Shown piece after piece: positions 818-26,736 of a stretch of DNA of 34,310 nt (positions are counted from its first letter, which is position 1; every line of letters starts with the position of its first letter). A model generated the notes under the pieces. It had not been told where the DNA came from and ran no database searches. It saw only the letters and a list, made by a program, of their open reading frames with translations. Source of the DNA: Sulfurovum sp. (GTDB taxonomy: Bacteria > Campylobacterota > Campylobacteria > Campylobacterales > Sulfurovaceae); assembly GCA_027019175.1 (NCBI GenBank), contig JALUXB010000009.1, positions 1 to 34,310 on the forward strand. The letters run 5' to 3'. The translations under genes and the position numbers were made by a program.

Positions 818-907
818 GTAGGGTGCATACCCACGCACCTTTATACGATTACCAAAACATTATAGATACCAAAAATCCGATATACGGTGCGTGGGTACGC
901 ACCCTAC
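818..907. repeat. REP-like pair A (two inverted 22-nt GTAG hairpins)
   Basis: The unit at 818-839 starts GTAGGGTGC and ends GCACC. The unit at 886-907 starts GGTGCGTG and ends GCACCCTAC. They are reverse complements of each other with one difference. Each unit is itself a small hairpin (GGTGCGT paired with ACGCACC in the right copy) with a GTAG tetranucleotide at its foot. The paired, opposed arrangement is like the BIME form of bacterial REP elements, which are mobilised by RAYT (TnpA-REP) transposases. The pair lies between dapD and btuB. Confidence 0.75.
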
Positions 908-944
908 GGAGAATACAAACAAACATTAAAAGAAGGATACAACC

Positions 945-2825
945 ATGAAACACACCATTACACTCAGCCTTTTTGCGGCATCTCTGCTTACAACTGCATC
1001 GTTTGCACAGGAAGATCTCGGTGAGATTACCGTCACCACGGAAAATAAAGCACCTCAATCACTACAGAATATTACATCTGATGTAGATGTTATCACCGCA
1101 AAAGAGATAGAAGAAAGAGGTTACATCACTGTCACAGAAGCGCTCAATTCTCTTCCTGGAATCTCTTTTACAAGTAATGGAGGTTTGGGTAAATCCACAT
1201 CCGTTTATGTTAGAGGCATGGACAATAAAAGAGTGCTTATTTTAGTAGATGGCATAAGGTATCAAGACCCTTCCAACACCAATGGTGCAGCAATTCAACA
1301 TCTCATGATTACAGATATTGATCGTATAGAGGTTATTAAAGGTGCCCAATCTGGTGTTTGGGGTGCAGATGCTGCAGCAGGTGTTATAAATATAATTACA
1401 AAATCTGCTACAAAAGGAAACCATGCTTCTGCAAATATAGAAGCAGGGTCTTTCAATACAAAAAGATACAGTGTAAATGTTTCAAAAAAAACTGATACTT
1501 ATGATATTCTACTTTCTGCCTATAAAATTACCTCTGACGGCTTTACTACAAAAGCTCCTTTTGGAGAAAATATAGATAATATGGAAGATGATGGATATAC
1601 AAACCGTACTATAACTGCAAAGCTTGGTATAAATGTTACCGACAATTCAAGATTGGAAATTGTACATACAAATATTGAAGGCTCTACCGATTTTGATAGA
1701 AGAGATGAAAATGACACAGAAGCGCAAAGTGATTTTACGACAAAGTTGACGAGTATCTCTTACACCTACAATATTGGGAACCATTCCCTTAAACTTAAAC
1801 ATGAAATTTCAAGTTTCGAGAGAGAAGAAAAAAATATTACACCATCTCCTTGGTTTACACAAGTTGAAAAATTTGATGGAAAAGTTATAAATACAGAAAT
1901 GACGGACAATTTCAATTATAGAGAAAAAGATATCGTTGTCCTGGGACTAAGCCATCAAAAAACAGAAGCTGATTATACAACAGCATCAGGCAAAAGCGAC
2001 AACAGCACTTTTGTAAATAAAGCCCTTTTTGTAACAAACAGTAACCATATAGGTAAAAACATTATTCTTACAGAGGCAATTCGATATGATAGATATAACA
2101 ACTTTGAGAATAAAACAACTGGAAAAATTGGTTTTCAATATACCAGTGATATTGGATTAATCGTTACAGGAAACTATGGTACAGCATATAATGCTCCCAA
2201 TATAATTCAAATGTTGAACCCCTGGGGTGCTTCCAATAACAACCTGCAGCCAGAAACTATAAAAAGTTATGATCTTTCTGTCGGATATGGTGGATTAAAG
2301 CTAACTTATTTCAACCAAAAAATTGACAATATGATTTCCTGGTTCGACCCGGGTACACCATTCAACTTTAATGATGACTACTATAAAAATCTTTCAGGCA
2401 CTTCAAGAATAAACGGTATAGAGATAGTATATAGAAAAACATTTTTTGATAACTTGGTATTGGATACAAGCTATACGAAACTTACAAAAGCTGAAGATAA
2501 AGACCATAACAAGCTTTTAAGAAGAGCCCGGGAAAACTTTAAAATTGCATTAGACTACTACGCTATGGATAATCTTCATATAGGTGTTGATGCCCAATAT
2601 GTAGGTCAAAGAACCGATAAAGCTTTTAATCCAATTACTTTTAAACCCTATGATGTTGAAACAGGAAAATATACTGTTATCAACCTTACAGCAAATTATG
2701 ATATCACACCACACTTGGAGATTTATGGTAAAATCGAAAATATCGGTGACAAATATTACCAGACAGTATACGGTTACGCAACAAGCCCAAGAGCCTTCTA
2801 CTTCGGTATCAGAGGCAAAATATAA
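945..2825 (+). CDS. btuB: TonB-dependent outer-membrane receptor, BtuB-like (vitamin B12/corrinoid)
   Basis: The protein has 626 residues. It has a signal peptide (residues 1-21, ending SFA-QE), a probable TonB box (EITVTTENK, about 27-35) and a plug domain with VYVRGMDNKRVLILVDGIRY, IDRIEVIKGAQSGVWG and AAGVINIITK at about 87-152. A 22-strand barrel type C-terminus ends in aromatic Phe-Tyr-Phe-Gly-Ile-Arg. BtuB imports cobalamin across the outer membrane using TonB energy. The B12 substrate is inferred mainly from the following btuFDC and cob genes; receptor paralogues for siderophores look similar. After about the first 70 codons the gene is visibly AT-richer than its neighbours, which suggests transfer or recombination. 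REP-like pairs bound it on both sides. Confidence 0.85.
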   Translation: MKHTITLSLFAASLLTTASFAQEDLGEITVTTENKAPQSLQNITSDVDVITAKEIEERGYITVTEALNSLPGISFTSNGGLGKSTSVYVRGMDNKRVLILVDGIRYQDPSNTNGAAIQHLMITDIDRIEVIKGAQSGVWGADAAAGVINIITKSATKGNHASANIEAGSFNTKRYSVNVSKKTDTYDILLSAYKITSDGFTTKAPFGENIDNMEDDGYTNRTITAKLGINVTDNSRLEIVHTNIEGSTDFDRRDENDTEAQSDFTTKLTSISYTYNIGNHSLKLKHEISSFEREEKNITPSPWFTQVEKFDGKVINTEMTDNFNYREKDIVVLGLSHQKTEADYTTASGKSDNSTFVNKALFVTNSNHIGKNIILTEAIRYDRYNNFENKTTGKIGFQYTSDIGLIVTGNYGTAYNAPNIIQMLNPWGASNNNLQPETIKSYDLSVGYGGLKLTYFNQKIDNMISWFDPGTPFNFNDDYYKNLSGTSRINGIEIVYRKTFFDNLVLDTSYTKLTKAEDKDHNKLLRRARENFKIALDYYAMDNLHIGVDAQYVGQRTDKAFNPITFKPYDVETGKYTVINLTANYDITPHLEIYGKIENIGDKYYQTVYGYATSPRAFYFGIRGKI

Positions 2826-2843
2826 CAGTTATATAGCGTGCGG

Positions 2844-2932
2844 GTAGGGTGTTGTCCCCTGACAACACCATCGTCAAAATGTACACTTACTTTAAATATA
2901 GCAAAAGGTGTTGTCGGGGGACAACACCCTAC
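2844..2932. repeat. REP-like pair B (GTAG hairpins with a different stem)
   Basis: The unit at 2844-2869 is GTAG then GGTGTTGTC, loop CCCT, and GACAACACC. The unit at 2907-2932 is GGTGTTGTC, loop GGGG, then GACAACACC and CTAC. The stems are 9 bp and perfect. Position and architecture match pairs A and C, but the stem sequence is different (GGTGTTGTC instead of GGTGCGT), with both arms changed together. The pair fills the gap between btuB and btuF and ends just before the btuF start. Confidence 0.75.
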
Positions 2933-2942
2933 GGGATGCATG

Positions 2943-3776
2943 ATGAACTTTAAACTAATAGTACTGCTTTTATTGACACTTCATACCTATGCCAACGAGC
3001 GCATTGTTACCCTCTCCCCTGCCATCAACGAGATTGTTTTTGCACTCGGTGCTGGCAATGAAGTGGTAGGCAACACCCTCTACAGTACCTACCCCAAAGC
3101 ATCCCGTTCCCTGCCGAAAGTCGGCGGATACTTCTCCCCCGATTTGGAGAAGATCATGGCACTGCGCCCCACGCTGGTACTGATGCAGCCCAACAACCGT
3201 GCCCTTGCCAAACAGCTGCAGCGCCTTGGCATCGGCACCATGACCGTACGTATCGACCGTCTACCTCACATTGAGCAGGCGATCACCGCATTGGGAAAGC
3301 GTCTTGAACACACGAAAGAGGCAGCCAACATCACCCATGCCATTGCCGATGCACTTGCCAAAACCAAGGGTATCGTCAAGGGCAAAAAGATCCTCATCGT
3401 CTTTGGCTACAACCGTGTCATCAAAGGCAACGTCTTTGTAGCGGGACAGAACCTCTACTTCGATGACATCATCAATGCTTCAGGCAATACCAACGCGCTG
3501 CATGCCACACGCAAAGGACAGCCGGTACTCAGCCGCGAGAACATCATCGCACTCAACCCGGACATTGTCATTGTGCTGGCACACGATCTGGACAAAAAGC
3601 ACCTTACCAAAGAGGATGTCATCGCGCCGTGGCATACACTGCCCATAACCGCAGCAAAAAGAGGCGATATTTACCTCATAGACAAAGACTACAGCGGTAT
3701 TCCAAGCGACAGGCTGGTTTACTTTTTAAAAGATTTCAGGGAGATACTTCATGCCGCTGCACATCACCGACTATAG
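2943..3776 (+). CDS. btuF: Periplasmic cobalamin-binding protein of ABC transporter, BtuF-like
   Basis: This is the class III periplasmic binding protein that hands corrinoid to the BtuCD importer. From ATG 2943 (or the adjoining ATG 2940) the product has 277 residues. It begins with a signal peptide (FKLIVLLLLTLHTYA), then RIVTLSPAINEIVFALGAGNEVVG typical of BtuF/FhuD-type proteins, VGGYFSPDLEKIMALRPTLV, and a second lobe with KKILIVFGYNRV and PDIVIVLAH. A longer frame reaches back to 2838, but its extra N-terminus is only translated repeat and would hide the signal peptide. A weak GGGA at 2933-2936 directly follows the repeat hairpin. The end overlaps btuD by 26 bp. Confidence 0.85.
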   Translation: MNFKLIVLLLLTLHTYANERIVTLSPAINEIVFALGAGNEVVGNTLYSTYPKASRSLPKVGGYFSPDLEKIMALRPTLVLMQPNNRALAKQLQRLGIGTMTVRIDRLPHIEQAITALGKRLEHTKEAANITHAIADALAKTKGIVKGKKILIVFGYNRVIKGNVFVAGQNLYFDDIINASGNTNALHATRKGQPVLSRENIIALNPDIVIVLAHDLDKKHLTKEDVIAPWHTLPITAAKRGDIYLIDKDYSGIPSDRLVYFLKDFREILHAAAHHRL

Positions 3777-4449
3777 CGATGAGATACTCCACAACATCTC
3801 TTTTAGGCTTGAAGCGGGCAGCCATCTGTGCATACTCGGTGCCAACGGTGCAGGCAAAACGACCCTTGCCAAGGTACTCTGCGGGCTTATTGACACCAAG
3901 GCTGTCACCATAGACGGCAAACTCCTCCACGACCTGCACGGTACGGCGCGTGCCAAAGTAGTCAACTACATCCCTGCCAAACTGGAGATATTTGATACAC
4001 ATATGTCTGTAGAGGAGCTGCTGGCACTGAGCCACTTTGACACGGCACTGCATATCGGTGATGCTTTGGAGAGGCTGCAGATTGCACACCTTCAAGAGCA
4101 CCCATGCCGAACCCTCAGTTCCGGAGAGTCACAGCTGGTACTGACTGCTTCTGCACTGCTGCATAACGCGCGCTACACCCTCTTTGACGAACCTACCGCC
4201 AACCTCGACCCGATGCGGATGCGTACGCTTTTTGCGTTACTCTCGGATGAACATGTATTAAAAAGCAAGATCGTCATCACCCACAACCTTGAACTCGCTT
4301 TCAAACTGGGCTTTGACATCCTCTATCTTGAGGAGGGGCGTATCCGTTTTTATGGCAGTGCCGAGCGCTTTTTTGCGCAGTCGCAGCTCGATGCACTTTA
4401 CCATGGCAGTGTGAAAAATCTTGGTGATCATGTGGTGGTGTCGCTATGA
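3751..4449 (+). CDS. btuD: Cobalamin ABC transporter ATP-binding protein, BtuD-like
   Basis: This ATPase subunit has 232 residues and powers corrinoid import with BtuC. It shows a Walker A motif GANGAGKTT at residues 30-38, an ABC signature written LSSGESQ, Walker B YTLFDEP followed by the D-loop (ANLDP), and the switch histidine in VITHN. It is slightly short at the N-terminus: the usual first beta strand is compressed to LHITDYSDEILHNIS. The start lies inside the 3' end of btuF and the stop overlaps btuC by 4 bp (ATGA-type), so the three are a translationally coupled operon. The family also serves iron-siderophore uptake; B12 is inferred from context. Confidence 0.85.
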   Translation: MPLHITDYSDEILHNISFRLEAGSHLCILGANGAGKTTLAKVLCGLIDTKAVTIDGKLLHDLHGTARAKVVNYIPAKLEIFDTHMSVEELLALSHFDTALHIGDALERLQIAHLQEHPCRTLSSGESQLVLTASALLHNARYTLFDEPTANLDPMRMRTLFALLSDEHVLKSKIVITHNLELAFKLGFDILYLEEGRIRFYGSAERFFAQSQLDALYHGSVKNLGDHVVVSL

Positions 4450-5384
4450 AAACACTTTTCCTTCTTGCCTCTTTGTTGTTGCTTGTTGCCGCACCCTTCT
4501 TCGGGCAGATCGATCTATCGCTTACTAAACTGATGCAACCGCAGAGTATGGCACATCAGGTCTTTATGCAAATCCGTCTGCCACGTGTGCTGCTGGCATT
4601 TCTGGTCGGCGGCATTCTCTCACTGGGCGGGCTGGTCTTTCAGGTGGTCTTTCGCAACCCCATGAGTACTCCTTACACCCTTGGTGTTGCCAGCGGTGCC
4701 ACCCTCTTTACCGCCATCGCCATCATCGCAGGGCTGGGTGCCTACAGCCCTCTTTTTGCTTTTGTAGGAGCGATGATGACCGTGCTGATACTCTTTGCTG
4801 TCGCCTCCCGCTTTGGCGGATACGACCCCACCGCACTGCTGCTGGTGGGCATCGCCCTTGGGTTTTTCTATGCCGCGGCACTCATGGTGATGTACGCCCT
4901 CTCAACATTGCAGGAGAGTTACGAGATCTTGCGCTTTACCATGGGCAGTCTGGACATCGTAGGCTTCGGACAGATCGGCATCCTCGCCGCTGCTGCTGCA
5001 CTGCTTCTACTGATGATGCGTTACTACAAAAATGCCTTCAAAGCCCTGCTGGTCTCTTACGAGTTTGCCTTTTTGCAGGGTATCCGTGTCAAAAAACTCA
5101 GCTACACCCTGCTCTTTGGTGTCTCTGTGGCTGTCGGTGCAGCAGTAAGCCTTACAGGACCCATCGGCTTTGTGGGACTCATCATCCCCCACATGCTTGC
5201 CACACTCTACCGCCAGAGTGCAGAGAAGCTGCTCATGCCAAGCTTTTTTTACGGCGGTGTTTTTCTGGTACTGTGCGACCTCATCGCCCGTTCTTTGGCG
5301 GATGCGACACTGCCTATTGGTGTGGTCACTTCGTTTGTAGGGGCACCGTTTTTTATCTATCTGTTGCTACGGGGCAGGAAGTAG
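4446..5384 (+). CDS. btuC: Cobalamin ABC transporter permease, BtuC/FecCD family
   Basis: This 312-residue inner-membrane permease has about nine or ten hydrophobic helices. It carries FecCD-family landmarks: RLPRVLLAFLVGGILSLGG near residue 45, FRNPMSTPYTLGVASGA near 75, and GPIGFVGLIIPHM near 240, the part that contacts the ATPase. It completes the BtuF-BtuD-BtuC importer. The TAG stop codon (5382-5384) is made from the GTAG foot of the next REP-like repeat. The C-terminus FIYLLLRGRK is about the usual end of the family, so little if any protein has been lost. Confidence 0.88.
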   Translation: MKTLFLLASLLLLVAAPFFGQIDLSLTKLMQPQSMAHQVFMQIRLPRVLLAFLVGGILSLGGLVFQVVFRNPMSTPYTLGVASGATLFTAIAIIAGLGAYSPLFAFVGAMMTVLILFAVASRFGGYDPTALLLVGIALGFFYAAALMVMYALSTLQESYEILRFTMGSLDIVGFGQIGILAAAAALLLLMMRYYKNAFKALLVSYEFAFLQGIRVKKLSYTLLFGVSVAVGAAVSLTGPIGFVGLIIPHMLATLYRQSAEKLLMPSFFYGGVFLVLCDLIARSLADATLPIGVVTSFVGAPFFIYLLLRGRK

Positions 5385-5473
5385 GGTGCGATATTTCGCA
5401 CCGTTTACGTGTCAACCGATAGAGAATGCTGTTTTTTCATAACGGTTTGAAGGTGCGTGATTACGCACCCTAC
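5381..5473. repeat. REP-like pair C
   Basis: The left unit 5381-5402 is GTAG plus GGTGCGA, loop TATT, TCGCACC. The right unit 5452-5473 is GGTGCGT, loop GATT, ACGCACC, CTAC. Both are hairpins of 7 bp with the GTAG tetranucleotide at the outer foot, in head-to-head orientation about 50 bp apart. The right unit is identical to the single copy at 26715-26736. The left unit contributes the btuC stop codon. Confidence 0.78.
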
Positions 5474-5512
5474 GAAAAATATACAATTTACTATGCAATA
5501 AGGAGAAAAACT

Positions 5513-6577
5513 ATGCTACACCCCATCATTGGAACATTAGATACCATCAAAACCCTACAAGGAAAATCAGCCACCTTCATGCTCGCCATGAGCAATACCG
5601 CCACCGCCGACATTCCCGGCATTACCCAGGCGGGGATTCCCGGTATGCTGCACCTCACACCGGTGCTTGATGCGGAGTTTCTCACCACAGGCGCGGTACA
5701 TTCGCTTGAAAATATCGCAGAAACACCAAAAGGGGTACCCACTCCGGCACTCATCACCCGTGCGATGCACCTGCTGCATCCCTTTGCACACATTGAACTG
5801 CTTGATTTAGGACTCAAAATCACACCCAAAACCGATGCGCCGATACACGGTTTCGACATTCCTCCAAGCGGCAACATTGCCCAAGATTGCAACATCGACG
5901 CCAAAGCGGTCTTTGAAAAAGGTATCGCCTTCGGACAAAGCTATGAACTTCAAGATGACTACCTCATCCTTGCCGAATCGGTGCCTTCGGGTACCACCAC
6001 GGCAACTGCTACAGCACTGGCACTCGGATTCGATGCACGCAACTTTTTTAGCTCCAGTTTCAAAAATGTCCCCAACGACATCCGACAAACCACCATCGAC
6101 AAGGCACTCTTGCGCATTGAAGATACGGAAGATATCTTTGCCAAACTTGGCAAAGTCAGTGACAACATGCTGCTTTTTGTTGCCGGTTTTCTGCTTGGTG
6201 TAGATGACCGCTTCCCTGTTGTGCTTGCAGGCGGTACCCAGATGGCAGCTGCCCTGCTTGTAGCCGATGCCATCACACAACACTACCCCCAATACCGCCA
6301 ACAAAACACCCTAAAACCCATGCTTGCCACCACCAAATGGGTTGCCGATGATGCCCACTCCGACATCGCCGCCCTGCTTGCAATGCCAAATTTCCCTGTC
6401 AATGCCTGCTACAGTGACTTTGACTTCTCACAGGCCACACATCCCGCACTCAAACTCTATGATGATGGAGAAGCCAAAGAGGGCGTGGGTGCCGGAGGTG
6501 CGTTAACATACGGCATGATGAACGACTTGACGAAAGAAGGAATAACAGTACAGGTGGAGAAATTTTTGGGTTTATAA
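5513..6577 (+). CDS. cobT: NaMN:dimethylbenzimidazole phosphoribosyltransferase-like protein, UPF0284/TIGR00303 type
   Basis: The protein has 354 residues from ATG 5513, which follows AAGGAG at 5500-5505; a longer frame from 5426 reads through the repeat and is rejected. It contains MSNTATADIPGITQAGIPG, ESVPSGTTTATATALALG and a VVLAGGTQMAAALLVADAI segment near residue 240. These fit the UPF0284/TIGR00303 family found in archaea and cyanobacteria, not the enteric CobT with its GNTTxAAA motif. The family is known or proposed to make alpha-ribazole phosphate for the lower ligand of cobalamin. The last 12 codons form the left copy of the island-flanking direct repeat. Confidence 0.85.
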   Translation: MLHPIIGTLDTIKTLQGKSATFMLAMSNTATADIPGITQAGIPGMLHLTPVLDAEFLTTGAVHSLENIAETPKGVPTPALITRAMHLLHPFAHIELLDLGLKITPKTDAPIHGFDIPPSGNIAQDCNIDAKAVFEKGIAFGQSYELQDDYLILAESVPSGTTTATATALALGFDARNFFSSSFKNVPNDIRQTTIDKALLRIEDTEDIFAKLGKVSDNMLLFVAGFLLGVDDRFPVVLAGGTQMAAALLVADAITQHYPQYRQQNTLKPMLATTKWVADDAHSDIAALLAMPNFPVNACYSDFDFSQATHPALKLYDDGEAKEGVGAGGALTYGMMNDLTKEGITVQVEKFLGL

Positions 6578-26714: not shown

Positions 26715-26736
26715 GGTGCGTGATTACGCACCCTAC
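26715..26736. repeat. Single REP-like unit D
   Basis: GGTGCGT, loop GATT, ACGCACC, then CTAC: identical over 22 nt to the right unit of pair C (5452-5473), 21 kb away. It lies 30 bp after the hemE stop, so on the minus strand it forms a GC-rich hairpin that may protect or end the hemE transcript. No opposed partner is seen nearby. Confidence 0.75.

Follow-up and report, generated by a model that had tools for sequence, protein, structure and literature searches.

Three pairs of short hairpins and one solitary hairpin in a 34,310-nucleotide stretch of Sulfurovum sp. DNA (contig JALUXB010000009.1, here contig C9, bases 1-34310; hereafter the window) very probably belong to a genome-wide population of GTAG repetitive extragenic palindromes (REPs) that was spread by REP-associated tyrosine transposases (RAYTs) and is now orphaned. 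The pairs, which fill three successive gaps of a btu-like locus, are REPINs—two head-to-head REPs around a spacer. Such elements are abundant in the genome, fall into two classes that do not mix in opposed pairs, occur as near-identical copies of whole elements and occupy sites that differ between sister species. The comparisons covered the assembly containing the window (2,203,513 bases in 87 contigs; completeness 99.99%) and 36 genomes of the same genus; G009 denotes the sister species (~99% complete).

The pattern GTAGGGTG-N6-26-CACC matches the whole assembly 148 times (72 forward, 76 reverse) and the reversed pattern 0 times, a count suggested by an earlier, sequence-only reading of the window, and one which places the elements in abundance outside the btu locus. 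Class A (22 nt) takes the form GTAGGGTG-N10-CACC (95 matches), its heads being mostly GCGTAnnCACGC and in some cases GCGATATTTCGC, GCGAAATCTCGC or near variants. Class B (26 nt) takes the N12-16 form (48 matches), nearly all with a TTGT/CTGT...ACAA/ACAG head. Pooling matches no more than 150 bp apart yields 99 units: 59 single, 37 pairs, and 3 triples. Among the 43 pairs of neighbours at this distance, 26 A/A and 11 B/B pairs are opposed with their feet outward, and none is mixed; three of these 37 each consist of a single palindrome matched on both strands, so that 34 separate opposed pairs remain (25 A/A and 9 B/B). The other six comprise one A/A tandem, one A/A pair with feet inward, two mixed tandems, one B/B pair with feet inward, and one B/B tandem. 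With GTAG at the foot of a short hairpin, many copies, and 81 of 99 units lying between predicted open reading frames (ORFs), the elements have the properties of GTAG REPs, and their same-class inverted pairs those of REPINs, as the sequence-only reading had proposed in speaking of REP-like elements in opposed pairs. Short palindromes (26-30 bp) bounded by GTAG on either side, resembling a REPIN stripped of its spacer and one arm, were also seen (G000:C76:17600-17625, C34:11317-11346 and C84:21482-21511).

The window contains the following members:

818-907: REPIN 1, class A / class A; REPs 818-839 (+) and 886-907 (-); 37 bp upstream of the btuB start
2844-2932: REPIN 2, both arms class B; REPs of 26 nt at 2844-2869 (+) and 2907-2932 (-); in the gap separating the stop of btuB (2825) from the start of btuF
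5381-5473: REPIN 3, asymmetric, class A' (GCGATATTTCGC) / class A; REPs 5381-5402 (+) and 5452-5473 (-)
26715-26736 (-): single class A REP; the orthologous gap in G009 has no REP

These boundaries had been predicted correctly to the base, and seven of the nine exact occurrences of the octamer GTAGGGTG in the window lie inside the four elements. The right end of REPIN 2 is located 7 nt ahead of the first in-frame ATG of btuF (2940), and btuC takes its TAG stop codon (5382-5384) from the GTAG foot of REPIN 3, as it does in G009. The class A hairpin (REPINs 1 and 3) has a consensus 7-bp stem and a 4-nt loop, although the left arm of REPIN 1 pairs over 5 bp only, and the class B hairpin (REPIN 2) has a perfect 9-bp stem with a 4-nt loop; of the earlier description as a GTAG foot plus an imperfect hairpin, the foot is thus borne out, whereas imperfection is not a general rule. 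Predicted RNA folds of REPINs 1, 2 and 3 amount to -41.8, -50.7 and -39.2 kcal/mol, well under dinucleotide shuffles (z -7.8, -10.2 and -5.3), and hairpins of such stability in the codirectional btu gaps could influence the ends of mRNAs or the translation of btuF. The part in shaping transcripts that the sequence-only reading had suggested is possible.

The spreading unit appears, at least partly, to be the whole REPIN. Two 92-nt REPINs are 96% identical, with a spacer identity of 0.92 (shuffled spacers at most 0.66), and the nearest copy of REPIN 3 elsewhere in the genome is a REPIN at 91% identity with a spacer identity of 0.86 (shuffled at most 0.66). Spread as one unit therefore holds for REPIN 3 and for other REPINs. 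REPIN 3 has a counterpart in the sister species, identical in position and in its asymmetric pair of heads. REPIN 2 is probably common to both genomes as well, since contig C20 of G009 starts inside its right arm, the left arm not being seen. An orthologous place in G009 could be assigned to 39 of the 99 units, an exact REP being present at 22 of these places and absent from 17; as the G009 stretches were chosen around that genome's own REPs, these are not genome-wide rates, and gain is not distinguishable from loss. In certain gaps the two species differ in class, one having A and the other B (L159 versus L297, L161 versus L289). A side observation is an asymmetric REPIN (L129, 8297-8390, versus L305) that is inverted between the two sister species within the same gap. 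The idea that GTAG serves as a pre-existing target was rejected: the single clean empty site lacks GTAG, and gene ends differ where G009 has no REP, albeit in small numbers.

Which enzyme might have moved the elements is indicated by the relatives. In these, a second, smaller kind of Y1 protein (~155-200 aa) occurs, and a profile built from four such proteins retrieves 18 genes above 200 bits in 13 of the 36 genomes. All 18 match Pfam Y1_Tnp (one is cut by a contig end), the profile matches the solved TnpA-REP structure 4er8 at 1.1e-28, and at least one GTAG hairpin adjoins 17 of them (none was found at G013:C84), a combination of Y1/HUH domain and flanking GTAG REPs that identifies them as RAYTs. 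In 11 of the 18, the stop codon of the RAYT gene is the TAG of the adjoining REP foot (L215, L216, L219, L220, L222, L223, L225, L227, L245, L246 and L251). RAYTs that are close in the tree have similar hairpins beside them, and hairpin and clade correspond: class B hairpins are found next to four grouped RAYTs, those of G031, G015, G024 and G008 (support 84/89), a nearby fifth has a class B-like hairpin, and other groups, although several forks of the tree are weak, carry other hairpins. REPs counted by the pattern GTAGGGTG-N8-18-CACC have a median of 57 in genomes with a small RAYT (n = 13) and of 6 in those without (n = 23; Mann-Whitney p 4e-5), and among genomes at least 90% complete the medians are 58.5 (n = 6) and 3.5 (n = 12; p 0.004), statistics that ignore shared ancestry. 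The same pattern gives 145 matches in the window's genome and 49 in G009, in neither of which a small RAYT was found. If studied RAYTs are a guide, the GTAG foot and hairpin would be recognised in single-stranded DNA by an IS200-like Y1 transposase, which would copy or move the element. The copies in this genome may have been spread by RAYTs akin to those seen in the relatives, and the enzyme would since have been lost from, or be missing in the assembly of, both this genome and G009, leaving an orphaned population. At the btu locus, likely side effects are that btuC obtains its stop codon from the repeat and that the mRNA carries very stable hairpins between btuB and btuF and between btuC and cobT.

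Several observations weigh against this history. The four-protein profile detects no REP-type RAYT in the window's own genome, where its only hit is a protein encoded on contig C30 (35.6 bits), so that the proposed agent is missing where it is needed; a profile of all 18 RAYTs, at E-values up to 10, likewise yields only the C30 protein, and the four-protein profile finds no REP-type RAYT in G009 either. A cognate RAYT in the same genome was thus not found, although incomplete assembly is possible. Several genomes are rich in class A REPs, yet just one RAYT flanked by class A hairpins was seen (G014:C1). The spacers of REPINs 1 and 2 reach identities of 0.59 and 0.62 at best to those of other REPINs, which is not above the shuffled level, and these two are consequently not demonstrated to be whole-unit copies. 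To this come the one clean empty site among the 17 (n = 1), whose target has no GTAG, and the disregard of shared ancestry in the RAYT-REP statistics. The recognition by RAYTs proposed in the sequence-only reading is therefore supported by the REPs alongside the relatives' RAYTs but not by the genome itself, and its suggestion that a Y1 RAYT with a flanking copy be sought there has failed, the sole Y1 gene lying on a contig without REPs. It had also regarded absence of the elements elsewhere, combined with absence of a RAYT, as fatal; the former does not apply (148 matches), while the latter does.

A possible, if not the favoured, explanation is that the organism does have a cognate RAYT, which the assembly fails to include. 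The 87 contigs, the flanking of RAYTs by REPINs and the start of a G009 contig (C20) in a REPIN arm, which shows that REPINs can coincide with contig ends, are compatible with such a gap, and the REPIN pair at 96% identity points to fairly recent copying. However, the assembly has a completeness of 99.99%, the nearly complete sister also lacks a RAYT, and Escherichia coli genomes that have REPINs without a RAYT are on record (PMC8049555). An orphaned population thus has precedent in these genomes and in the possible absence of REPtrons through deletion noted in PMC3733652.

The genome's only Y1_Tnp match, a 256-aa protein at C30:7449-8216, could in principle move the REPs in trans, but this is very unlikely. 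It is the only Y1 gene found, and its nearest relatives occur in genomes bearing class A REPs, G009 (95% identity) and G002 (92%). On the other hand, no REP of the searched form is present on contig C30, and inverted repeats, (GGG)GTCAGGTGATAAT...ATTATCACCTGAC(CCC), enclose the gene as well as its relatives, with a sequence that is conserved in the relatives and unrelated to REPs. Moreover, G013 has copies 80-82% identical but no class A match, and presence of the long Y1 kind, scored as a full-length copy at 60% identity or more (10 genomes), tracks REP count weakly (p 0.20 for all 36 genomes, 0.04 for the 18 at least 90% complete). With a Y1 domain and long inverted repeats unlike REPs, and with flanking GTAG REPs lacking, the protein resembles a TIRYT rather than a RAYT; its flanks being of another kind, it was rejected as the REP transposase. 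The locus shows the arrangement described as a TIRtron in PMC3733652, a Y1 domain between inverted repeats, and the repeats of the relatives, starting GGGGTCAG, fit the motif GGGGWSAS printed there, the own copy reading AGGAGTCAGG. The assignment of the C30 protein is based on its flanks only. That the two-class REPIN population is still moving, or is kept by the host, throughout a RAYT-less lineage of this species and its sister, be it through another enzyme in trans such as the C30 protein or through gene-end hairpins useful to the host, is improbable.

Surviving copies sit most often right after a stop codon. By a simple ORF caller, whose predicted ORFs define placement, the 99 units are distributed over codirectional gaps (57), convergent gaps (19), divergent gaps (5), ORFs of less than 150 aa (12), longer ORFs (5) and an edge (1). 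The foot supplies a TAG stop codon in 16 of the 99 units, and singletons close to a gene end face the stop codon with their foot in 36 cases versus 12 in the opposite orientation (p 7e-4). This preference, like the intergenic position of 81 units with only five in divergent gaps, would suit RNA or DNA structures maintained by the host, for example 3'-end hairpins that protect or end mRNAs, with transposase spread being ancient and selection keeping the copies. Post-stop placement is, however, equally expected from an insertion bias or from loss of harmful copies. Also in favour of host maintenance, eight REPINs shared with G009 differ at 10 of 352 bases in their arms and at 37 of 367 in their spacers (Fisher p 7e-5), a count that leaves out a ninth, inverted REPIN (L129 at 8206) and in which arms picked by an exact pattern in the window's own genome appear less divergent than they are. 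Further points against it are the 17 of 39 sites without an exact REP in the sister and the REP-free gaps, which have a median identity of 0.82 between the two genomes (15 measurable gaps). Spacer constraint had been considered because spacers appeared to change slowly beside fourfold-degenerate sites of btuF, btuD, btuC and cobT (161 of 464 differ, a figure including an unreliable btuF row, 8 of 11, with the reading frame off); the claim was dropped, as REP-free gaps are about equally conserved. Taken together, host maintenance is an unlikely account, and transposase spread followed by orphaning remains the preferred one.

The locus around the three REPINs consists of the following genes, named by homology (Pfam, NCBIfam) only:

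945-2825 (+): btuB-like TonB-dependent receptor; Pfam Plug and barrel; best NCBIfam model TIGR01779 (B12 receptor), 288.6 bits, cut-off of 599.7 not reached
2940-3776 (+): btuF-like periplasmic binding protein; Pfam Peripla_BP_2; best model BtuF, 90.1 bits, under the cut-off of 234
3751-4449 (+): btuD-like ABC ATPase; ABC_tran passes its Pfam cut-off; the 25 NCBIfam models listed all stay below theirs; 89% identical in G009
4446-5384 (+): btuC-like FecCD permease; Pfam FecCD; best model BtuC, 172.7 bits, under the cut-off of 334
5513-6577 (+): cobT-like protein; NF003372 above cut-off; TIGR00303 (CobT) 234.7 bits versus a cut-off of 240

The sequence-only reading had considered three pairs within 4.7 kb to be dense. 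Over the whole genome, three units fall within 4,656 bp in 11 runs, compared with a mean of 1.80 and a maximum of 8 in 2000 simulations of a uniform null; density is hence real against this null, but since the btu run is one of 11, it reflects general clustering and no peculiarity of the locus. A special link to cobalamin genes, which the same reading had raised, found no support for this reason. A regulatory system specific to cobalamin could be imagined from the occupation of three successive gaps of a single locus and from relatives: G022 carries one REP upstream of btuB and, between btuC and cobT, a solitary one whose head differs, and in G022, G008 and G018 a REP lies inside btuD. Nevertheless, the elements are spread genome-wide, ten further runs of three exist elsewhere, the gaps are filled by different classes, G016 has the same gene order with all three btu gaps free of REPs, and the window yielded no cobalamin riboswitch. 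Such a role, rejected in view of the other runs and the missing riboswitch, deserves next to no credence; the btu copies are ordinary members of the genome-wide REP/REPIN population, and the btu hairpins are settled as ordinary REPINs. The REPs inside btuD (L254 ~5460-5485, L255 ~983 and L256 ~940 for G022, G008 and G018) are class B-like and in frame, encoding GIVGGQYPT, GVVRVQHPT or GVAREQHPT, where the BtuD of the window is several residues shorter.

The btu elements belong to a kind already known. GTAG REPs in Sulfurovum have been published, a Sulfurovum strain being named in PMC3733652 among genomes with coexisting GTAG and CGTC repeats; literature searches returned nothing further on REPs in Sulfurovum and nothing on REP-associated tyrosine transposases in Campylobacterota. 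As described in that paper, the families share with the present elements the GTAG foot, the short hairpin, head-to-head dimers, an intergenic and mostly post-gene placement, with which that of the units here agrees, and a foot often giving the TAG stop codon. The likeness lies in foot, arrangement and placement and not in a comparison of hairpin sequences, and the present analysis adds the division into two classes, the comparison with the sister genome and the assignment of RAYTs. REPINs as characterized in the literature (PMC3116915, PMC8049555) are likewise inverted REP pairs that spread as a unit and, in E. coli, are commoner where a RAYT is present (PMC8049555); in contrast, a large population here stands beside an assembly without a RAYT. 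The small Y1 proteins of the relatives match TnpA-REP/RAYT (4er8; PMC8266576) by profile and adjoin GTAG hairpins, whereas no such protein was found in the window's genome. For these enzymes, PMC8266576 reports that cutting takes place at CT or CA close to the REP, and it also describes the part played by GTAG. A compact set of Sulfurovum-like genomes with differing hairpin classes and matching RAYT clades, some of them rich in REPs without a RAYT, is well suited for asking whether REPINs persist without their transposase.

A second hairpin family of the form GGTATGC-stem-GCTTTTATT, often following seven-base tandem repeats (e.g., GAATGAG or GAATAGT), was also observed. In G009 it fills post-stop gaps in which the window's genome has REPs (L289, L292, L297, L300 and L302), and it occurs in the window's own genome as well (L128, L157).

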